In this document: piece after piece, positions 13,363 through 32,364 of the stretch
Position numbering within the stretch: position 1 is the first letter of the stretch
Layout of the letters: each line of letters opens with the position of its first letter
Made by a program: the position numbers and the translations under genes
Assembly (NCBI GenBank): GCA_903928915.1
Contig: CAIYSL010000115.1
Coordinates: forward strand, 1 to 38,453
Length of the DNA stretch: 38,453 bases
Reading direction: 5' to 3'
Origin: an uncultured Syntrophobacterales bacterium
Lineage (GTDB): Bacteria; Desulfobacterota; Syntrophia; Syntrophales; UBA5619
The notes under the pieces: generated by a model
Told to the model about the DNA's origin: nothing
Databases searched by the model: none
Seen by the model: only the letters and a program-made list of their open reading frames with translations

Positions 13363-13429
13363 CCCCAACCCGCCGCCCCGCGGGGGTAAGACTCCGGCGG
13401 CAGTGCCGCCGCAGCCATGAGGTCGCCAA

Positions 13430-14353
13430 ATGAAACTCACGAGAAAGGACATCCTCGGAATCCAGGATTTTTCCGTCGCGGAGATCGAGCTGGTCCTCGA
13501 CACGGCGGAATCTTTCATCGAGGTCTCCACGCGGGAAATCAAGAAGGTCCCCACGCTCCGCGGCAAGACGGTGATCAACCTCTTCTACGAGGCGAGCACC
13601 CGGACGCGGACCTCGTTCGAAATCGCCGGCAAGCGCCTGAGCGCCGACACGATCAACATCTCCGCCTCGACCAGCAGCATGGTCAAGGGGGAGACCCTGA
13701 TCGACACCGCGAAGAACTTGGAGGCGATGAACCCGGACATCGTCGTCGTCCGCCACAGCGCCGCCGGGGCCCCCCATCTGCTGGCGGGGCTGCTCAAGCA
13801 GTCGATCATCAACGCCGGCGATGGCGCCCACGAACACCCCACCCAGGCCCTGCTGGACATGATGACGATCCGGGCGAAGAAGGGGCGGATCGCCGGCCTG
13901 AACGTGGCCATCATCGGCGATATCTCCCACAGCCGGGTCGCCCGCTCCAACATCTACGGCTTGACCAAGATGGGGGCGCGGGTCTCCGTGGCCGGGCCGG
14001 CCACGATGATCCCCCGCGGCGTGGAAACGCTCGGCGTCGCCGCGTACACCCGCATCGACGATGCGATCCGGGGGGCCGACATCGTCATGATGCTGCGCAT
14101 CCAGACCGAACGGGAGAAGAACAACATCTTCCCGTCGCTGCGCGAGTATGCCAACCACTTCTCCCTCAATTCCCGGAACATCACCCTCGCCCGGGAGGAC
14201 GCCCTGATCATGCACCCGGGCCCCATGAACCGCGGGGTGGAGATCTCTCCGGACATCGCCGACGGCCCCCGTTCGATCATCCTCGACCAGGTTACCAACG
14301 GCGTCGCCGTCCGGATGGCGCTTCTCTATCTCCTGACAGGAGGCGACGAATGA
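13430..14353 (+). CDS. pyrB: Aspartate carbamoyltransferase catalytic subunit
   Basis: PyrB makes N-carbamoyl-aspartate from carbamoyl phosphate and aspartate, the committed step of pyrimidine synthesis. The 307-residue protein has the carbamoyl-phosphate motif STRTRTSFE near residues 54-62, [21 protein letters not shown] and the aspartate-binding region [10 protein letters not shown]. Length equals the family norm. No regulatory pyrI subunit is adjacent, as in the PyrR-regulated class. The 67-base gap before it holds a 7-bp GC hairpin (CGGCGGC/GCCGCCG, 13395-13411) without a T-run, then a GAGG ribosome site. The stop overlaps the pyrC ATG. Confidence 0.97.
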
Positions 14354-15636
14354 TACTGGTACTGAAGGGAGGCAGGATCCTCGACCCCTCCCGCACGCTC
14401 GACACGAAGGGGGACCTGCAGATCGAAGACGGAAAGATCGTCGCCTGCGGCAAGGCGCCCGCCAAGGCGCTCCGCTCTTCCGGAGCCGAGGTGATCGACC
14501 TGGACGGCAAGCTCATCGTCCCCGGCCTGATCGACATCCACACCCATCTGCGGGAGCCGGGGTTCGAGTACAAGGAGACGATCGCCTCAGGATGCGCGGC
14601 CGCCGTCGCGGGCGGGTTCACCTCCCTGGCCTGCATGGCCAATACGGACCCCGTCAACGACAATCCTTCGGTGACCGAGTTCATCCGCCGGAAGGCGGCG
14701 GAATGCGGCGTCGCCAACGTCTACCCGATCGCGGCGATCAGCCTGAAGTCGGAAGGGGCGACCCTCGCCGAGTTCTGGGACCTCAAGGAAGCCGGCGCCG
14801 TGGGGTTCTCCGACGACGGCCGGCCGGTCATGAATGCGGCCCTGCTGCGGCGGGCGCTCGAATACGCCTCGTCGCTGGAGATGCCCGTCATCGTCCACTG
14901 CGAGGACAAGCACCTCTCTGCGGGGGGGGCGATGCACGAGGGGCTGGTGTCCGCCGAACTCGGGCTGGCCGGCATCCCATCGATTGCGGAGGAGGTCATG
15001 GTGGCCCGGGACCTCCTCCTGGCCGAGTACACCGGGGCGGCCCTGCACATCGCCCACGTGAGCACGGCCGGGTCCGTGCGGCTGATCCGTGCCGCCAAGG
15101 CGCGGGGCGTCCGCGTGACCGCCGAAACCGCCCCCCACTATTTTACCCTGACTGATGCGGCCGTCCGCGCCTTCGATACCAACGCCAAGGTCTCCCCCCC
15201 CCTGCGCGGCGTCGAGGACGTGGCCGCCATCCGGGAGGGGCTCCGCGACGGGACCATCGACGTGATCGCCACGGACCACGCGCCCCACGCGCGCACCGAC
15301 AAAGAGGTCGAGTTCGATTACGCGGCCAGCGGTCTGACGGGGCTCGAAACCTCGCTCGGCCTGTCGCTCGCCCTGGTCCGCGACGGCGTGCTGACGCTTC
15401 CCGCCCTGATCGAAAAGATGACGCTCCGGCCGGCCGGGGTCATCCACGTCCCGAAGGGGACGCTGGCCGAGGGGGCCGACGCCGACGTCACCGTCATCGA
15501 CCCGAACCGCTGCTGGAGCGTCGACCGGTCCGCCTTCCGCTCCCGCGGGAAGAACACCCCCTTTCACGGCTGCACCCTTACGGGGAAGGCGGTCCTGACG
15601 ATTGTCGGCGGCGTGATCCGGCACCGCGATTTGTAA
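14350..15636 (+). CDS. pyrC: Dihydroorotase (class I)
   Basis: PyrC cyclises carbamoyl-aspartate to dihydroorotate. The 428-residue amidohydrolase has the metal motif [10 protein letters not shown] (His64, His66), GFSDDGRP (bridging Asp), HCED and HVS histidines, and the catalytic ATDHAPH block, all complete. The class I length (about 430) and pairing with pyrB suggest the two proteins may form a complex as in Aquifex. The ATG at 14350 overlaps the pyrB stop (ATGA). The long in-frame stretch upstream is the pyrB region read in another frame and is rejected. Confidence 0.97.
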
Positions 15637-16419: not shown

Positions 16420-16512
16420 GGAAGGCGTTTTCCGCAGGCGGTGAACCCGCCGTCCGCAGGAAGGGTATTCGCCAGGCGATTCACGCGGCCGCGCGACGGG
16501 TCGCCCGTCCCC

Positions 16513-19236
16513 CTATGCCAGCACCCGCATCCATTCCGTAAGCGAGGTGATTCCGGCAGTCACGTTGCTGAACCCCTGGGTCTGCAGCGAGGCGAATCCA
16601 CGTTCTTCCGCCCTGGCCCGGATCATGGCGGCGGAACCTCCCTGCAGGATCGTTTCCTGGACCCTGTCCCACAACGGCAAGACTTCGTACACGGCGCACC
16701 TTCCCCGATAGCCCGTATTGCCGCATTCGTCGCATCCCTCTCCCCGAAAAAACCGATGCCCGTCGAGCCTCAGTCCGTAACTCTTGAACACGGTTTCCTG
16801 CAGGTCCGTCGGGACGACCTCGACCCTGCACCGTTCGCAGATCTTGCGCAGCAATCGTTGCGCCACGATGAGGTTGACGGAGGAGGTGATCATGTACGGT
16901 TCGATCCCGATATTGAGCAGCCGGGTGACGGTTTCGGGCGCATTGTTGGTATGAAGGGTGCTCAGCACCAGATGGCCGGTCAGAGCGGCCTTGAAGGCAA
17001 TTTCGGCGGTCTCAAAATCCCTGATCTCTCCCACCATGATGATATCGGGGTCCTGCCGCAGAAAAGTCCGCAGCGCGCGCGCGAAATTCAGCCCTATCTT
17101 CGTGTTCATCTGAAACTGGTTGATCCCCTGCAAATTATACTCGACGGGATCTTCGGCCGTCGAAATGTTGAGGGACCCGTCGTTCAATCCGCGCAGCATC
17201 GAGTAGATCGTCGTTGTCTTCCCGCTTCCGGTCGGACCGGTCACCAGGATCATCCCTTTGGATTTGTACATGGCGGACAGCAGGAGCGTTAAGTCGTTTT
17301 CGTTCAGGCCCAGCCTGCGTACATCCAGCCCCGGACCGGCGCTGTCCAGCAGACGCAGGACAATCTTTTCTCCGTACATTCCCGGAAAGGTCGAGACGCG
17401 AAAGTCGACGACCTTTCCGTCCTTGCGCACCTTGAACCTGCCGTCCTGGGGGAGTCGCCGTTCGGAAATGTCCAGCCCGGACATGATCTTGATCCGCGAG
17501 GCCAAGCCGTTGGCATAGCTCTTGGCAGGGTCCAAAACCGTCGTCAGCGTACCGTCGATCCTGAGGCGCACCCGTAATTCCTGTTCGTAGGGTTCGATAT
17601 GGATATCGCTGGCGTTTTGTTTAATGGCCTCCTCGATGATCACATTGGCCAGCTTGATGATCGGGGCGTCCGAGTCTTTCAGCTCCTCGCCGTAGGCGAC
17701 GGCTTCCTGTTTCTCTTCCACAAGCTCCAGGTCGCTGTTCCAATCCTCCTGCTGCATCTTCGTCATCGCCTGGTGATTGCAGGGCTTGGCCGTCTTGATG
17801 TTGTAGAATTTCTCGATCGAATTCAGGAGGTAGTATTCCGCGGCCAGATGGGGAAGGACCGGAGAACCGGTGACGAAGCGAATGTCTTTGGTGAGCTGCC
17901 AGTCGTCCGGGTTCGTCATGGCCGTGCACAGGCTCCCGGACTCGGTCTTGAACGGGAGAACCTGGTAGCGCCGCACGTATTTTTCCGGGATGATCTTGAG
18001 GATGCCCTCATCGATGTGTTCGATCGTCGACAGGATGGCGATCCGGCAGTTCTTGTGCTGCTGGGCCAGGTGGTGGATCAGGACCGTCTCGTTCACGAGG
18101 TTGAGCGCGGCCAGGTTGTACTGCAGGCTGTTTCCGTTCTTCTTGCGCTCCTTCAGGGCCTCCTGCAATCCGGCCCGGGACACTTCGTCCGCTTCGAACA
18201 GCCGGCCGCCGATCGTGTCCCCGATCAGATAGGATTCAGGCTTGTTGAGCGCCGGCGCGCAACAGAGATTCTGCAGACTCTTCGCAACGGCGAGATAGGT
18301 ATCGACATGATTCTCCTTCTTCATCCAATTGATCAGCGTACCGGATGTCTTCTGGAAATTATCCTTCAGGCAGTCGAATTCATCCAGAGCGGCCGTCACG
18401 GCCCGTAGGCTTTCGGCGATTCCCTTCCGTATCTCGGCGGATTTGTCGTCCATCTTCCGGGACAAATCGCCGATCAGCGCTGCCAGCTCGTCGCTGCTCC
18501 CTCCGGACAGGAGATCGTCGATACAGGCGGCGATTCGTTTCCCGTCGCCCGCGGACGGCTCCTGTCCGCGGAGACGATCCGCCGTCTCGGGGGGGAGGAG
18601 AGAATCTTCGGGACCGGGTCGGCGGGTATCTTCCTCCCGATCGTTCGTCCCGCCGTTCGCCTGATCGTCAATGCTGTGTACGGGTCGAGTGTGCCGATCG
18701 CAGTCGGGGTCACTGCCGGTCGCTCCCCGATTCTTCTCCTGCGCAATTCCGGCGGTTGCCGCGTGGTCGCGCGCCCCCCCCGTTTCCTTTCCCGATACCT
18801 TCCCGTACCTGATCCCGTTGAGCCGAATCGTCGTGACGCCGTTTTGCCTCAGGAACGAATCGACGCTGCCGGATTTCCTGTTGGGTTGGGGCCGCTGCGA
18901 CATCGCCCGGATAAACATCAGGTAGTCCCGCCGGGACAGTCCCCGATAGAAGGAGATGCTTTCGATTGCCCGCTGATCGAGCTCCAGAGCGAGGTTCGCG
19001 AATCCGGCGTTCGGCGATTCGAGCGGGACGTCGTCCGCCAATAATTTTCCGCCGTCAGCGCTCAGCGTCAGCACGCTCTTCGCGTTCAGATGATCTACCA
19101 ATGCGCGGTAGGAATTGTGGAGTATCTCGGTAGTGGCGGGATGGTCTTCGGGGTATACGCCCGTGCTCTTTATGGCGAGCTGCACCTGGCTGAGCGTGTC
19201 GAGGACTTGCTTGTTATGACCCTGCGGCAATTTCAT
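16513..19236 (-). CDS. PilB/GspE-family type IV pilus/secretion ATPase with long extra N-terminal region
   Basis: The C-terminal half is a complete secretion ATPase: ASDIHIEPYEQELRVR, RLPQDGR, Walker A GPTGSGKTTT (about residue 666), an Asp box (TAEDPVEY), Walker B DPDIIMVGEIRD and the His box STLHTN. A four-cysteine zinc motif (CERC near 800, CDECGNTGYRGR near 834) follows. A MshEN/GspE-N-like domain (about 405-480, containing IPEKYVRRYQVLPF) precedes it. The first 400 residues are unusual: an alpha/beta region with YPEDHPAT and LLADDVPLE, a polar low-complexity linker (about 150-230) and a helical, HEAT-like stretch. Total is 907 residues against about 570 for PilB. Start: ATG at 19236; a GTG at 19251 is an alternative and neither has a strong ribosome site. 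No pilus gene is adjacent. Confidence 0.88.
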   Translation of the reverse strand: MKLPQGHNKQVLDTLSQVQLAIKSTGVYPEDHPATTEILHNSYRALVDHLNAKSVLTLSADGGKLLADDVPLESPNAGFANLALELDQRAIESISFYRGLSRRDYLMFIRAMSQRPQPNRKSGSVDSFLRQNGVTTIRLNGIRYGKVSGKETGGARDHAATAGIAQEKNRGATGSDPDCDRHTRPVHSIDDQANGGTNDREEDTRRPGPEDSLLPPETADRLRGQEPSAGDGKRIAACIDDLLSGGSSDELAALIGDLSRKMDDKSAEIRKGIAESLRAVTAALDEFDCLKDNFQKTSGTLINWMKKENHVDTYLAVAKSLQNLCCAPALNKPESYLIGDTIGGRLFEADEVSRAGLQEALKERKKNGNSLQYNLAALNLVNETVLIHHLAQQHKNCRIAILSTIEHIDEGILKIIPEKYVRRYQVLPFKTESGSLCTAMTNPDDWQLTKDIRFVTGSPVLPHLAAEYYLLNSIEKFYNIKTAKPCNHQAMTKMQQEDWNSDLELVEEKQEAVAYGEELKDSDAPIIKLANVIIEEAIKQNASDIHIEPYEQELRVRLRIDGTLTTVLDPAKSYANGLASRIKIMSGLDISERRLPQDGRFKVRKDGKVVDFRVSTFPGMYGEKIVLRLLDSAGPGLDVRRLGLNENDLTLLLSAMYKSKGMILVTGPTGSGKTTTIYSMLRGLNDGSLNISTAEDPVEYNLQGINQFQMNTKIGLNFARALRTFLRQDPDIIMVGEIRDFETAEIAFKAALTGHLVLSTLHTNNAPETVTRLLNIGIEPYMITSSVNLIVAQRLLRKICERCRVEVVPTDLQETVFKSYGLRLDGHRFFRGEGCDECGNTGYRGRCAVYEVLPLWDRVQETILQGGSAAMIRARAEERGFASLQTQGFSNVTAGITSLTEWMRVLA

Positions 19237-19319
19237 CGGTCCATCAACCACGACCGAAAATCCTGCCCGGCTCCGAACCGCAGAACCGGGATACGGCTGG
19301 CGGCCTCACGCGGGGAACG

Positions 19320-19596: not shown

Positions 19597-20529
19597 GTGA
19601 CCTTTCAGGAACTGATCTTTGCCCTCGAGAAATACTGGGCCTCACAGGGGTGCGTCATCCAGCACCCCTATGACGTGGAGGTGGGCGCGGGGACTTTCAA
19701 CCCGGCCACATTCCTCCGGGCCTTGGGGCCGGAACCCTGGAAGGCGGCCTACGTGGAGCCCTCCCGGAGGCCGACGGACGGAAGGTACGGAGAAAACCCG
19801 AACCGGCTCCAGCATTACTACCAGTACCAGGTCGTCATGAAGCCGTCGCCGCCCAACATCCAGGAGCTCTATCTCGACTCCCTCAAGAGCTTCGGGATCG
19901 ATCCGCTGGAACACGACATCCGGTTCGTGGAGGACGACTGGGAGTCGCCCACGGTGGGCGCCTGGGGGCTCGGCTGGGAGGTATGGCTCGACGGGATGGA
20001 GATCTCCCAGTTCACCTATTTCCAGCAGGTCGGCGGGTTCGACTGCCGCCCGGTCAGTGCGGAGCTGACTTACGGCACCGAGCGGATCGCCATGTACATC
20101 CAGGGAATCGACAACGTGTACGACCTCGAATGGACGAAGGGGATCAGCTACGGAGATGTCCACCACCAGGGAGAGGTGGAGTGGTCCGTGTACAACTTCG
20201 AGACCGCCGACATCGCCCAGCTCAGGACGCGCTTCGATATGTACGAGGCCGAGGCGATCAGAATGGCGGAGAAGGGTCTGGTGCTCCCCACGTACGACCA
20301 TTGCCTCAAGTGTTCCCACACCTTCAACCTCCTGAACGCCCGGGGCGCGATCAGCGTGGCCGAACGGACGAGCTACATCGGCCGGGTTCGCAATCTTGCC
20401 CGCCTCAGTGCGGAAGGGTACCTTCGGCAGCGCGAGGCGCTCGGCTACCCCTTGCTGCACGGGGCGCCGCCCCCCTGCGGGTCCCAGCCCTCCGCCGCAG
20501 CCAAGACCACCGGGGGGGGAGGAAGATGA
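19597..20529 (+). CDS. glyQ: Glycine--tRNA ligase alpha subunit
   Basis: GlyQ is the catalytic alpha subunit of the bacterial alpha2beta2 glycyl-tRNA synthetase. The 310-residue protein has the near-invariant family opening [19 protein letters not shown], followed by QPYD-like [31 protein letters not shown] and [19 protein letters not shown]. It uses a GTG start with a strong GGAGGAG ribosome site. The final 25 or so residues are a proline/glycine-rich tail beyond the usual end. The stop overlaps the glyS ATG (ATGA), so both subunits are made in coupled fashion. Confidence 0.98.
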
Positions 20530-22622: not shown

Positions 22623-22784
22623 CCTTCGATCGGTGCCGATCCGCCCCCGGGTGGCCGCGACAGGAAGGGGAGCATGGGCCCATCCGGGCAAAGTTCCTAT
22701 TGAATTATTTTCGATTCTGATTTAGCCTCTGATCGGTTGCCGCACGCGGCGACCCGCAGCGAACCAACGATGCAGGGGATGGTC

Positions 22785-25100
22785 ATGCTGACGGAATTAC
22801 AGCGAATGGATAAAATCGGCAACAAATCCGTCCTGGAATTGGAAGAAAAACTCCAGGTGCGCAAGGCCCTGGTCGACATAACCAACCGCATCCACGCCGC
22901 CCAGAACATCAAGCAGATCCTCGTCGACCTCAAAGACGGCATCCTGACCCTTTTCAATGCCCACTCGATCACGATCTACGTCGTCGACCAGCCGCGCAAA
23001 GAGATCTACTCCCTGCTCCTTGCCGGGGCGCAGGTGAAGGAGATCAGGGTCCCGATCAATAACCGGAGCATCGCCGGGTACGTGGCCAACACCGGCAGGA
23101 TCGTCAACATCGCCGACGCCTACGATTCTGCAGAGCTGAAGCTGCTCGACAATGAACTCGCCTTCGACGTGAGCTGGGACAAGAAATCGGGTTTCCGGAC
23201 GCGGCAGATCCTTGCCGCGCCGATCTACCACAACAAGGCACTGATGGGGGTCCTGCAGATCCTCAACAAGAAGGGGGGACCAGGCAGATTTTCCGACGAC
23301 GAACGGGGCTTCCTCCAGGAGATCGCCGACGTCCTCGGCGTCGCCTTCTTCAACCAGGAGCGGTACGCCCGGCGCCGGAAAACCCGGTTCGATTACCTGA
23401 TCAGCCACGACCTGCTCAAAGAAGAGGAACTGGACGCCGCCTGGGAGGAAGCTCGCGAGGCAAAGGAACAGATCGATGATTTCCTGATGAAGAAATACCG
23501 GATCTCCCACGAAGATATCGGCCGCTCCTTCGAGGAGTTCTTCCGGTGCAAATTCATCCCCTTTTCCGACCGCTATCCCATCCCCGGCGACCTCCTGGTC
23601 AACCTCAAGAAGGAGTACCTCCGCCGGGAACTGTGGGTCCCGCTCGAGAAGAAGGACGGCGTCATCCACGTCATCGTCGACGACCCGAACAACATCCTCA
23701 AACGGGACATGATCGAAAACCTCCTCAAGACGAAGGCAGTCCGGTACGACGTCTCCCTCCCCAGCGATATCATTAAATACATAAACAACTTCTACCACTC
23801 GACCGAGGACGAGTCGTCGATCACCGACATTCTCGGCAAGCTCGACGCGGACGACGAGACTCAGGACGAGGAAGACGGCGAGATCGTCAACGAGTCGGAC
23901 AGCGTGATCATGCAGTTGGTCAATAAGATCATCCTCGACGCCCAGGCCAGACGCGCCTCCGATATCCACATCGAACCGAACGTCGCCAAGAAGAACGTCG
24001 AGGTCCGGTACCGCGTCGACGGCGACTGCGCCATCTACCAGACCTTGCCCTACAACTACCGTGCGGCCGTCGTTTCCCGCATCAAGATCATGTCGAACCT
24101 CGACATCACGGTCAGGCGCCTTCCCCAGGACGGCAAGATCAAGTTCCGGAAGCCCGGCGGCGAAGAGATGGAGCTGCGCGTGGCCACGATCCCGACCGCG
24201 GGCGGGGTGGAGGACGTGGTGATGCGGATCCTGGCCAAGGCCGGTGATACCCTGCCCTTGACGGCGATGGGGATGCTGGAGCGCAATTTCCGGGAGCTGC
24301 GGCAGATCCTGGACAAACCCTACGGGATGATCCTCGTCGTCGGACCCACCGGGTCCGGGAAGACGACCACCCTGCACGCCGCCCTCCACGAGATCAACCG
24401 GCCCGACCGCAAGATCTGGACCGCCGAGGACCCGGTGGAGATCACCCAGTACGGCCTGCGCCAGGTCCAGGTCCAGTCGAAGATCGGGTTCGACTTCGCC
24501 GCGGCGATGCGCGCCTTCCTCCGTGCCGACCCCGATGTGATCATGGTGGGCGAGATGCGCGATTTCGAAACCGCCAAGACCGGCGTCGAGGCGTCGCTCA
24601 CGGGTCACCTCGTCTTCAGCACGCTCCACACCAACAGCGCCCCCGAGACGATCGTCCGCCTCCTCGACATGGGGATCGACCCGCTCAACTTCGCCGACGC
24701 CCTGCTCGGGATCCTCGCCCAGCGCCTCGTCCGGACCCTCTGCAAGAAGTGCAAAGAGGCCTACCACCCCGACCGCGCCGAGTACGACGAGATTGTGCAG
24801 CACTACGGCGAGGAGCAGTTCGCCAAGCTGAACACCCCCTACGACGACAAGTTCATGCTGTATCGGCCCAAGGGGTGCGACATCTGCGACAAGACGGGGT
24901 ACAAGGGCCGGATGGGGATCCACGAGCTGATCGTCGCCACAGACGGCATCAAACGGATGATCCAGAAGCACGAGACCGTCGAGACGATGCGCGACCTGGC
25001 CATGTCCGAGGGGATGACCACCCTGCTGCAGGACGGAATCCTGAAGTCGATCCAGGGGGTGACCGATTTCAAGCAGGTACGGCGGGTCTGCATCAAGTAG
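22785..25100 (+). CDS. GAF domain-PilB/GspE fusion ATPase
   Basis: This 771-residue protein begins with a GAF sensory domain (about residues 25-195; KQILVDLKDGILTLFNAHSI, RQILAAPIYHNKALMGVLQI). A MshEN/GspE-N-like domain (about 203-345) and an acidic linker (about 352-368) follow, then a complete secretion ATPase. The ATPase shows ASDIHIEPN, RLPQDGKIKF, Walker A GPTGSGKTTT (520-528), TAEDPVE, Walker B DPDVIMVGEMRD, STLHTN and the zinc cysteines CKKC (about 653) and CDICDKTGYKGR (about 699). The start at 22785 is chosen for the AGGGGA site 7 bases upstream; in-frame starts at 22737, 22770 and 22779 have poorer sites. A weak promoter-like TTGAAT-N17-TAGCCT lies at 22700-22728. GAF domains bind small ligands or cyclic nucleotides, so ATPase activity may be signal-controlled. 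No pilin or secretin is nearby. Confidence 0.9.
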   Translation: MLTELQRMDKIGNKSVLELEEKLQVRKALVDITNRIHAAQNIKQILVDLKDGILTLFNAHSITIYVVDQPRKEIYSLLLAGAQVKEIRVPINNRSIAGYVANTGRIVNIADAYDSAELKLLDNELAFDVSWDKKSGFRTRQILAAPIYHNKALMGVLQILNKKGGPGRFSDDERGFLQEIADVLGVAFFNQERYARRRKTRFDYLISHDLLKEEELDAAWEEAREAKEQIDDFLMKKYRISHEDIGRSFEEFFRCKFIPFSDRYPIPGDLLVNLKKEYLRRELWVPLEKKDGVIHVIVDDPNNILKRDMIENLLKTKAVRYDVSLPSDIIKYINNFYHSTEDESSITDILGKLDADDETQDEEDGEIVNESDSVIMQLVNKIILDAQARRASDIHIEPNVAKKNVEVRYRVDGDCAIYQTLPYNYRAAVVSRIKIMSNLDITVRRLPQDGKIKFRKPGGEEMELRVATIPTAGGVEDVVMRILAKAGDTLPLTAMGMLERNFRELRQILDKPYGMILVVGPTGSGKTTTLHAALHEINRPDRKIWTAEDPVEITQYGLRQVQVQSKIGFDFAAAMRAFLRADPDVIMVGEMRDFETAKTGVEASLTGHLVFSTLHTNSAPETIVRLLDMGIDPLNFADALLGILAQRLVRTLCKKCKEAYHPDRAEYDEIVQHYGEEQFAKLNTPYDDKFMLYRPKGCDICDKTGYKGRMGIHELIVATDGIKRMIQKHETVETMRDLAMSEGMTTLLQDGILKSIQGVTDFKQVRRVCIK

Positions 25101-28753: not shown

Positions 28754-31372
28754 TTATCCCAGCCGCTCCTTCCAGGCCGCGATCTGCTTCATCGCCTCGA
28801 GTGGCGTCAGGTTGAGCAGGTCGATCTCCCGGATCGCGTCGATGACCGGACCGTTCGGATCCGCGAACAGGGAAAGCTGGTTCGCGTTCTTAGTGAAACC
28901 CTTCCTGCCCCGGGCGATCTTCGGCATCCCCACTTCGTCAAGCTCGCCCTGCTCCATATTCCGCAGGATCTCCTTCGCCCGGCTGATCACCTCTGGTGGC
29001 ACCCCCGCGATTCGCGCCACCTGGATGCCATAGCTGCGGTTCGTCCCCCCCTCCATGATCTTCCTGAGGAAGATGATCCGGTCCCTCCATTCCCGGACGG
29101 CGATGTTGAAGTTCTTGACCCCCTCCTTCGTCACTACCAGTTCCGTGAGCTCGTGGTAGTGGGTGGCAAACAGCGTCCGCGCCCCCAGCGGCGCCGCGTC
29201 GTGGATGTACTCCGCCACCGCCCAGGCGATGCTGAGGCCGTCGAAGGTGCTTGTCCCCCGGCCGACCTCGTCGAGGATGATCAGGCTCCGTTTGGTGGCA
29301 TGCTGGAGGATGTTGGCCACCTCGGTCATCTCGACCATGAAGGTGCTCTGTCCCCGGGCGAGGCTGTCGGCCGCCCCGATCCGGGTGAAGATCCGATCGA
29401 CCACGCCGATGTGCGCGCGCGCCGCAGGGACGAAACTTCCCATCTGAGCCATCAGGACGATCAGCGCGATCTGCCGGATGTAGGTCGATTTACCCGCCAT
29501 GTTGGGTCCGGTGATGATCAACAAGCGGTTCTTTTCCAGGTCCAGCGTCACGTCGTTCGGAACGAACGTTCCGGCCCCGGAGATGCGCTCCACGACGGGG
29601 TGCCGGCCGTCACCGATCTCGATCAGGTCCCCGTCGTCGACCACGGGACAGCAGTAGTTGTACCGTTCGGCCACCTCGGCAAGCGACGCCAGTCCGTCAA
29701 GATCGGCAATCCGCGCCGCCGTGGTCTGTATCCGGCGGATGGCAGCGGCGATCCGTTCGCGCAGCGCGACGAACAGTTCGTATTCCCGCGCCTGCCGCCG
29801 CTCCTGGGCGTGGAGGACCGTCTCCTCGTACCCTTTCAGCTCTTCGTTGATGTACCGCTCCGCGTTGACCAGGGTCTGCTTGCGGATGTAGTCGGCGGGA
29901 ACGAGCCGCGCATTGGCCTTCGTCACCTCTAGGTAGTAGCCGAATACGCTGTTGAACCCCACCTTCAGCGAGGCGATACCCGTCCGCTGCCGTTCCTTCT
30001 CTTCGAGCGCGGCGATCCACTGCCTGCCGTCGCGGGTGAGGGAGATCAGTGCGTCGAGCTCCGCGTCGTACCCCTCGCGGATGATCCCCCCTTCGCGGAT
30101 CGTGAGCGGCGGGTCATCCACGATAGCCCGTTCGAGCAGCTCCCGGATGTCGGTCATCTCATCGATGCCCCCGTGTATCGTCGCGAGCAGCGGCATCTGG
30201 AGGCGGCCGGTGAGGCGGCGGATAGCCGGCAGGACCGCCAGCGACGACCGGAGCGCCGCGAGGTCGCGGCCGTTGGCGAGCCCGACGGCGATCCTGCTGC
30301 CCAGACGCTCCAGGTCGTACACCGACCGCAACACTCCGCGCATCTCCTCCCGGAGGAGGTGCTGCTCGCGGAATTCGGCGACCGCCGCCAGCCGCTCCCG
30401 GATCCGGAGGGGGTCCCGCAGCGGATAGGCGAGCCACCAGCGGAGCCGGCGCGCCCCCAGCGAGGTGACCGTCATGTCCAGGACGTTACAGAGCGACCCC
30501 GCCCTCTTCCCCTCGACGATCGTGGTGAACAGTTCGAGGTTTCGCTGGGCCACGTCGTCGAGGGTCAGATGGCTGCCACTTGCGTACCAGACCAGGTCGT
30601 TTACGTGGCCGAGCCGGTCCTGTTGCGTTTCTGCCATGTAGGCCAGCAGCGCCCCTGCCGCCGCTGCCATGGCCGGACGGTCCCTGATACCGATGGCCGC
30701 GAGGCGCTCGGCGGGGAATTGCTCGCCCAGGCGGGCCAGCGCGGCAGCGGGATCGAACCGCTCCGGCGGGAAGCGGTCGATCAGGCAGCGCTCCTCATCG
30801 CCGGCGATGTCCCGGATGAGCTGTTCGTCCTTCAGGTCCTCCGGGACGATCAGCTCGCGGATCGCGAGCGCGGACGCCTCGGCGCGAAAATAGTCGCGAT
30901 TCGCGGCCTCGGTCACCCGAAACTCGCCGGTAGAGATGTCGACGATGGCAAGCCCGTACCGTCCCTCCCGGACGACCAGGGTCGCCAGAAAGTTGTTCTC
31001 GCCGGCGTGGAGATTCTCCGTGTCGAGGACGAGGCCGGGGGTCACGACACGGACGACCTCGCGTTTCACGACCCCCTTGGCCTGCTTCGGGTCCTCCACC
31101 TGTTCACAGACGGCGACCTTGCACCCCTTGGCGATCAGCTTCGCGATGTACGCGGAGGCGGCATGGTAGGGAAACCCGCAGAGGGGGACGGCATCCTTGC
31201 TGTTCTTGTTCCGGGAGGTGAGAGTGATCTCCAGCAGCGCCGAGGCCTTGACCGCGTCCGCGAAGAACATCTCGTAGAAATCGCCCATCCGAAACAGGAG
31301 GATGCAGTCGGGATAGCGCTCCTTCACCTGGGCGTACTGGCGCATCGCCGGGGTCAGGTCGTTCACTCCCAT
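28754..31372 (-). CDS. mutS: DNA mismatch repair protein MutS
   Basis: MutS recognises mismatches and small loops and starts repair with MutL. The 872-residue protein has the N-terminal mismatch motif [10 protein letters not shown] (about residue 27), central lever/clamp regions with [14 protein letters not shown] and the C-terminal ATPase. The ATPase shows Walker [14 protein letters not shown] (about 620), Walker [16 protein letters not shown] and FATHYHEL. Length matches the MutS1 family. The ATG at 31372 follows GGGAGA and overlaps the upstream holin-like gene by 10 bases. The open frame continues upstream to 31954 but that part lies in other genes. No mutL is in the window. Confidence 0.97.
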
Positions 31373-31764
31373 CGGTCTCCCTTCTTCCGAAGGTCGATGG
31401 CAGAGATCCGCTCCACCCGCCCCCGTTCGCCCACGAAGCCGTTGAGCAGCCAGCTGACCACGCCGATGATCAGGGCGCCGAACACGGCGGTCCAGACCCC
31501 CCGCACGGTGAACCCGGGAATCACCGCGGAGACGATCCGCAGCATCAGGGCGTTGATGACGAAGGTAAACAGTCCGAGGGTGAGGATGTTCACGGGCAGG
31601 GTGAGCAGCAGGATCAACGGACGCAGAACGGCGTTCAGGATGCCGAGTGTCGCCGCCGCCGCGAGCGCGGAAAACAGCCCCTCCACCCGTATGCCCTCCA
31701 AGAACCAGGATGCGACCAGAACCGCCGCGGTCAGCACGAACCAGCGCAGCAGCACTCCCTTCAT
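31363..31764 (-). CDS. Phage-holin-superfamily-IV-like (YvlD type) small membrane protein
   Basis: This 133-residue protein has four predicted helices and the pattern of the YvlD/Mycobacterium 4TMS holin superfamily: [32 protein letters not shown] in the middle and an early [11 protein letters not shown]. Despite the family name these are mostly chromosomal membrane proteins of unknown function, and nothing here is otherwise phage-like. A GGGGGAAAG site precedes the ATG. The end overlaps mutS by 10 bases, so the two are translationally linked. It is 105 bases downstream of the rubrerythrin gene. Confidence 0.78.
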
Positions 31765-31869
31765 CGCTCTTTCCCCCCTGCCCCGCTCCGCGCGCCCGCG
31801 GCGTGACGGCGCTCTGCGCCGGCCGGCATCTGCCCCGGATCGAGCCGCCTCCGCAGCGGGTCCCCCCGG

Positions 31870-32364
31870 TCAGGCAACCGGGCCGAATCGATCCGCTTTG
31901 GCGCCACAGATCGGGCACGCCTCGGGCGGAGCCCCGTCCACCACGTATCCGCAAACCCGGCAGACGTGGTAGCTCGTCTCCCGTTCGGCCAGCAGATGGC
32001 TCATCGCCTCCTTGTACAAAAACCCGTGCGACTCCTCCACGTCCCGGCTCTGGCTGAAATGGAGCACCGCTGCCCGGTCCCCCTCGGCTTCCGCCGCGCG
32101 GACGAATTCGGCGTAGGCGACCTCGGCCACCCCATGCTCGGAGGCGAAACTCGCGGCAAGGTTTTCTTCGGTCGTCCCGGACTCCTTGAGGAGCTTGAGC
32201 GCCCTGGCCCCGTGGATCTCTTCCGAGCAGGCGATCGCCCGAAACAGTTTGGCGATCTGAGGATACCCCTCGTCCGCTGCCCTGTCGGCATAGACCTTCA
32301 GGCGGAGGGCCGCCTTTGCCTCCCCGACGAAGGCCTCCTTCAACGCGTCCCGTACACTCGCCAT
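31870..32364 (-). CDS. Rubrerythrin
   Basis: This 164-residue protein combines a ferritin-like diiron four-helix domain (about 1-130; [41 protein letters not shown]) with a C-terminal rubredoxin-like [Fe(SCys)4] domain (CRVCGY and CPICGAK). Rubrerythrins reduce hydrogen peroxide to water in anaerobes, taking electrons from rubredoxin. The start at 32364 follows a GGGAGAA site. Next to it are a stand-alone rubredoxin (upstream) and a flavodiiron oxygen reductase, together an oxygen and peroxide defence set. It is somewhat shorter than the approximately 190-residue classical form. Confidence 0.93.

Follow-up and report, generated by a model that had tools for sequence, protein, structure and literature searches.

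Origin of the extended motor ATPase

A gene in the window analysed here (the whole stretch of 38,453 nucleotides from an uncultured Syntrophobacterales bacterium) encodes a PilB/GspE-family ATPase with a long additional N-terminal part, which raises the question of where this part comes from and what it does on a motor protein. We find the product to be a PilB-type motor ATPase placed behind the N-terminal half of a module-HEAT-type signalling protein, with the motor motifs present and the c-di-GMP motif of the MshEN domain altered (Table 1).

The reading frame begins with the ATG at 19236, at which the orthologs align; a GTG at 19251, five codons 5' of this ATG, is a possible alternative. The gene stands alone between recO (+) and the glycyl-tRNA synthetase genes, the beta subunit being recognised by Pfam and the alpha subunit, at 19597, being assumed from its position. 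GC content is ~57-61% in parts of the gene (window 16500-19200), against 65-69% in most flanks.

Pfam places T2SSE (PF00437) at residues 521-904 (E 8.7e-134; 446.2 bits, cut-off 24.9) and a single MshEN stretch (PF05157) at residues 409-479 (47.6 bits, cut-off 23.1). The MshE-type motif model NF053729 matches residues 342-393 below its cut-off (23.1 bits against 38), and solved PilB chains in PDB align to the protein from residue 336-343 onward. Because of these borders the standard PilB part is taken to begin near residue 341, so that the additional part comprises ~340 residues; the earlier note, which had correctly spotted an extra N-terminal part, put its length at about 400. The elements that it described there, namely YPEDHPAT, LLADDVPLE, a polar linker (~151-227) and a helical stretch (~228-338), are all present.

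Table 1. Features of the fusion gene, in window coordinates
Feature	Position	Strand	Size, evidence or remarks
Whole gene: YP module, linker, pre-HEAT-like helical segment, MshEN and T2SSE ATPase	16513..19236	-	907 aa
YP module, residues 1-150	18787..19236	-	Found by profile on HEAT, HD, GGDEF, PilZ and histidine-kinase proteins; AF2 model
Polar variable linker, residues 151-227	18556..18786	-	AF2 block means 25-44; highest dN/dS of close pairs; gaps among orthologs
Helical segment B, residues 228-338	18223..18555	-	hhalign likeness to the pre-HEAT segment of type-i module-HEAT proteins
MshEN (GSPII) domain, residues 341-479	17800..18216	-	PF05157, E 1.7e-12; PDB matches
MshEN motif I, TIGGRLFEADEVSRAGLQEALKER	18145..18216	-	Compared with MshE: Arg9->Thr, Gly18->Asp, Gln32->Arg
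MshEN motif II, SLQYNLAALNLVNETVLIHHLAQQ	18058..18129	-	Compared with MshE: Arg38->Ser, Gly40->Gln, Gly47->Asn; Gln61 kept
T2SSE motor ATPase, residues 521-904	16525..17676	-	P-loop (GPTGSGKTTT), DPDIIMVGE, four-cysteine motif

Could the extra part be an ordinary extension of MshEN, or the product of a fused or misassembled reading frame? Length alone is not unusual, as Thermus thermophilus PilF (913 aa; 6f8l) is also a PilB-type ATPase lengthened N-terminally. The front part of PilF, however, consists of several further GSPII-like stretches, whereas that of the fusion is composed of the YP module and a HEAT-type segment without a match to PilF chains. Pfam recognises MshEN nowhere else in the protein, and a profile of residues 1-345 retrieves no PilB, PilF or MshE chain from PDB up to E 1, which rejects the extended-MshEN reading, one of the two outcomes that the earlier note had named as refuting its view. 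The length is also atypical of PilB proteins: of the 82 PilB-type matches listed for the whole-protein query (E 1e-100 or better, 61 genomes), 75 start no earlier than query residue 328, and the remaining seven belong to fusion genes, of which two are represented by C-terminal pieces at the ends of contigs. Six further long frames were considered and rejected as extended motors: L200, L201, L202, L204 and L205 are, by eye, GC-rich shadow frames 5' of ordinary PilBs, and in L203 a stop cuts the upstream part off an ordinary frame of 573 residues. Another candidate, L206, resembles by eye a GAF-containing PilB of the window (see below) and belongs to the same ATPase clade.

Assembly or frame artefacts are rejected by the orthologs. 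A profile of the N-terminal half (E 1e-20) finds the fusion in 6 of 155 genomes of the class, in two families; four copies (window, L048, L049 and L050) are complete in one frame, and L047, L051 and L052 are truncated where their contigs end. The orthologs are 58-65% identical to the window protein, which contradicts a single contaminating source. A search with residues 1-149 gives matches at E 0.001 in 17 of 61 genomes, counting the own genome; only in five of these (G000, G001, G014, G019 and G051) does identity reach 54% or more. A separate scan yielded six fusion loci in five 'Deltaproteobacteria' metagenome-assembled genomes, which correspond to the records G001, G014, G019, G051 and G310, the last having two copies (L050 and L051). 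Two may also be present in G014, since its N-terminal fragment (the end of L047) and its C-terminal fragment (the start of L207) overlap with different residues.

In the three closest ortholog pairs dN/dS amounts to 0.17-0.20 for the module, 0.49-0.62 for the linker and 0.26-0.28 for segment B (based on just 64 codons in two pairs). For the pair L049/L050 the values are 0.19, 0.52 and 0.28, respectively, followed by 0.14 for MshEN and 0.08 for the ATPase, and pairs with L051 agree for the module, the linker and the available part of segment B. In pairs with the window gene synonymous sites are near saturation, which also holds for the value of 0.10 obtained for the ATPase of window/L048. Module and segment B are under purifying selection, and the low dN/dS in the module and the helical stretch argues that the extension is more than a chance addition. 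An extended MshEN or a faulty frame thus appears highly improbable.

An uncatalogued module shared with signalling proteins

The earlier note likened the first 140 residues of the protein to a module of deltaproteobacterial HEAT-repeat and signalling proteins, and the comparison was right. Residues 1-150 recur on HEAT-repeat (HEAT_2) proteins, HD(-GYP) proteins (HD_5), GGDEF-AAA_16-module-HEAT proteins, HEAT-cNMP-PilZ proteins and histidine kinases. For this module, delimited here as fusion residues 3-147, we coin the name YP module. A profile of 20 modules detects it in at least 78 of 198 genomes of the phylum (E 1e-5), yet it is missing from Pfam and NCBIfam, where the 20 modules obtain no more than single-member matches (best E 0.075 and 0.023, respectively), so that the YP module is noteworthy in itself. 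Among PDB sequences the best match of the module profile (E 0.018) is Octarellin, which we take to be a designed protein, and that of the N-terminal-half profile has an E of 0.19; PHROGs gave a single match (E 0.073) and viral contigs none. In titles and abstract openings of a mostly open-access literature set without preprints, we found no report on the YP module, on this fusion or on the HEAT and HD(-GYP) gene pair described below.

The AF2 model of residues 5-141 is mostly confident and shows the order helix-helix-hairpin-helix-strand-helix-helix-strand, with block means of 73-89 for residues 11-110 and of 66-81 for residues 111-140. The model of the N-terminal half is good only for about these residues (mean pLDDT 55.4), and that of the full-length fusion is poor (34.9). 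The Foldseek search returned nothing below E 0.48; PelD was among the weak rows and was not used. VIA-align rows cover the first helices only, to residue 54 and in one case to 71, and exclude no family.

To see in what company the module occurs, ORFs were classified in stretches around the listed module matches, using home-made profiles built from few seeds on Pfam-assigned regions and leaving aside the own genome and two same-order matches (G033:C6:200022 and G049:C71). Among the matches listed, this gave 149 module ORFs in 98 loci: 69 with HEAT, 54 with HD, 11 with GGDEF and HEAT (10 of these also with AAA_16), two with HEAT, cNMP and PilZ, and two with a kinase HATPase. In a further 11 nothing was recognised, five being cut or short and six having 734-751 residues. 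None of the 149 module ORFs of this phylum sample contains a T2SSE ATPase, again among the matches listed, which bears out the earlier impression that the pairing with a motor is unusual. Two module-HEAT proteins (L089:4014-9056 and L090:3920-6676) carry C-terminal cNMP-binding and PilZ domains. Tandem modules were observed as well: two per protein in GGDEF/AAA-type proteins of ~1430 residues (L087:2050-6393, L087:6896-11176 and L088:3039-7334, the two L087 genes lying on the same strand), and a duplication at residues 4-151 and 147-294 of a HEAT protein (L046:3644-6370).

Module-HEAT and module-HD genes tend to be neighbours. Of the 54 module-HD ORFs among the matches listed, 49 follow a module ORF of the same strand that is either of the HEAT type or unclassified, the longest frames being separated by -700 to +300 nt, and 53 contain both an HDxGK-type and a GYP-type motif. 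The pair, module-HEAT followed by module-HD(-GYP), recurs in the phylum (L034:2195-5577, L083:3808-6764, L097:4053-7594 and others). In L038 (G023:C2) an in-frame stop separates the module from the HD part of a module-HD-GYP frame, reflecting a real break or a sequencing error. The module-HD(-GYP) proteins share the N-terminal module of the fusion and differ from it in their output, which is of the HD-GYP phosphodiesterase type rather than a motor.

Segment B resembles the pre-HEAT segment

The resemblance to HEAT proteins continues beyond the module. One class of module-HEAT proteins, labelled type i in this analysis (for instance L035, L039, L045 and, in the own genome, L033 on contig C98), likewise begins with the YP module and continues with segment B; these proteins then run into HEAT_2 repeats, whereas the fusion runs into MshEN and ATPase. 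Fusion residues 225-338 align with columns 374-466 of an alignment of seven type-i proteins with an hhalign score of 49.0 and a match probability of 89.7 (E 1.8e-6 for a single comparison). Shuffled controls remain lower (at most 22.6 in 60 column shuffles and 29.6 in 59 block shuffles), as does the reversed profile (15.4), and type-ii HEAT, HD and an MshEN control yield E 0.015 or worse.

In a search of 594 ORFs with segment B (some fusion records being contained twice), the top seven non-fusion matches are all type-i HEAT proteins (E 3e-4 to 0.033). The eighth is L088, a GGDEF-AAA-HEAT protein (0.047), and the ninth L118, again of type i (0.061); of the ten type-i proteins searched, L041 comes far down (E 2.4) and L036 does not appear among the matches listed. 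Judged by sequence comparison, homology is strong for the module and good for segment B. Given this likeness of segment B to the pre-HEAT segment, the N-terminal half is arranged in the order of the HEAT proteins (module, linker, segment B), the HEAT array being replaced by MshEN and ATPase.

The fusion is nevertheless not simply a type-i protein with another end. It has module and segment B in order, but its Pfam matches up to E 1 include no HEAT family, HEAT_2 among them, and the module tree sets the fusion modules apart as a deep clade (100/100), separate from the type-i HEAT clade (97/92), although segment B points to type i.

Altered MshEN motif and retained motor

As given in PMC5013675, the c-di-GMP motif of MshEN reads RLGxx..G....LxxxLxxQ and occurs twice. 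Two intact copies are not found in the fusion, which reads T-[IV]-G... and S-L-Q...; Arg9, Gly18, Gln32, Arg38, Gly40 and Gly47 are altered in all six fusions that reach the motif, while Gly11 and Gln61 are kept in these six. More of the motif is preserved by the own PilB encoded beside PilC (C102), which reads KLG and KIG and retains the two later motif glycines along with the second Gln, the first Gln being Lys. Loss of c-di-GMP binding by the fusion is still not certain, because changes of Arg9 or Gln32 in MshE shift affinity less than about fivefold, according to the same source (PMC5013675).

The fusion has MshEN followed by the ATPase, as in the type IV pilus PilB (TIGR02538), and its best NCBIfam and PDB matches are PilB; it differs in the ~340 extra residues of other origin, in the altered MshEN motif and in the lack of a PilC gene alongside. 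Motifs that we take to be the P-loop, the acidic box and the four-cysteine motif can all be read from the sequence. The scores for PilB (TIGR02538, 633.6 bits) and GspE (TIGR02533, 558 bits) are under the equivalog cut-offs of 675.65 and 630.25, respectively. In the ATPase tree the domains of six fusions cluster together (100/100) on a long branch, and their placement next to the GAF group, at a node that unites long branches, is uncertain.

The own genome contains seven PilB/GspE-type ATPase matches plus one under the cut-off, and two more ATPase matches on C121 are read as PilT-type. A strong PilM match is present, and of five PilC genes three adjoin a PilB. Contig C115, which carries the fusion, has no PilC (PF00482) match; this is a weak criterion, because other PilB-type genes of the genome also lack such a neighbour. 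One of them lies 3.5 kb from the fusion (window 22737-25100, +; 787 aa): like the fusion it combines a PilB-type ATPase with an N-terminal signalling domain and is encoded on a contig without PilC, but it has GAF in place of the YP module and belongs to another ATPase branch. Its GC content drops to 58% (window 23000-24000), against 65-69% in most flanks.

One may ask whether the fusion still builds a filament at all, or whether, in a manner similar to the GGDEF-AAA-module-HEAT proteins, its ATPase serves signalling and takes its input from the module. The contig without PilC, the scores below both equivalog cut-offs and the co-occurrence of module and AAA_16 ATPase in 10 of 149 ORFs (among the matches listed) are consistent with this, and PMC5544727 reports Myxococcus PilB as a signalling protein. 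However, the P-loop, the acidic box, the four-cysteine motif and MshEN are all kept, and by dN/dS the ATPase is the most conserved part of the fusion, which makes the loss of filament assembly distinctly improbable.

A possible role of the module in motor control

Some extension motors are regulated by MshEN-bound c-di-GMP and others by separate effectors such as PilZ and FimX, as stated in PMC11656802. The motor described here covalently bears a module common to proteins of second-messenger turnover. Most likely, on present sequence comparisons, it would be controlled by contacts of this module with a c-di-GMP-related signalling system and not by direct binding of c-di-GMP. The adjoining module-HEAT and module-HD(-GYP) genes suggest that the YP module makes protein contacts, and it may pair with other YP-module proteins or with itself. 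The partner of the fusion would then be a module protein or the fusion itself, and such contacts might take over from direct c-di-GMP binding as the control input. Binding of a partner at the N-terminus could be relayed via linker and segment B, thereby placing or switching the ATPase hexamer on a pilus platform whose PilC is encoded elsewhere. That all parts hold together, with the YP module pairing in this manner, replacing the c-di-GMP input and controlling the ATPase, we would put somewhat short of an even chance. More tentative is the wider proposal of the YP module as an undescribed, widespread interaction module of a HEAT/HD-GYP/GGDEF/PilZ system, into which a pilus extension motor has been plugged, MshEN binding being traded for module contacts. 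The fusion would in this case suggest a pilus motor wired into a HEAT and second-messenger signalling network.

For control by module contacts we count the shared module, the gene pairs, segment B, selection, the altered MshEN, the motor motifs and the contig without PilC despite five PilC genes in the genome, as well as an HD-GYP-type neighbour at one locus. There, in G051 (L030, which is the L048 record), the fusion is preceded at a distance of 54 bp by the end of a same-strand HD-GYP-type gene of 240 residues, itself without the module; apart from this one-locus neighbour, no conserved neighbourhood was seen at the loci examined. Against it we count that the HD-GYP locus is single, that the fusion modules branch separately, that L088 stands among the type-i matches of segment B, in which L041 and L036 fare poorly, and that the effects of MshE mutations are small. 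Another module protein (frames of 747-781 residues, type-i clade) is moreover found in only three of the six fusion genomes, so that in the other three, which are drafts, the partner would be missing or be the fusion itself.

The same three genomes without another module protein, together with the separate deep branch of the fusion module and a long linker of low model confidence, would also fit an N-terminal half that mainly serves as a localisation or oligomerisation tether, bringing the motor to the cell pole or clustering hexamers without any link to c-di-GMP. The other hosts of the module, which are mostly HEAT and HD(-GYP) proteins and in some cases GGDEF or PilZ proteins, and the altered c-di-GMP motif of MshEN speak against such a tether, which we consider less likely, and control by module contacts remains the reading that we prefer.

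Two other long ORFs of the window have N-terminal parts worth recording. A MutS ORF of 1066 aa (28754-31954, -) matches MutS_I only from residue 201, its start being perhaps placed too far upstream, and in a 739-aa ORF (13417-15636, +) an amidohydrolase domain begins at residue 364-367, the part ahead of it matching nothing in Pfam up to E 0.001.
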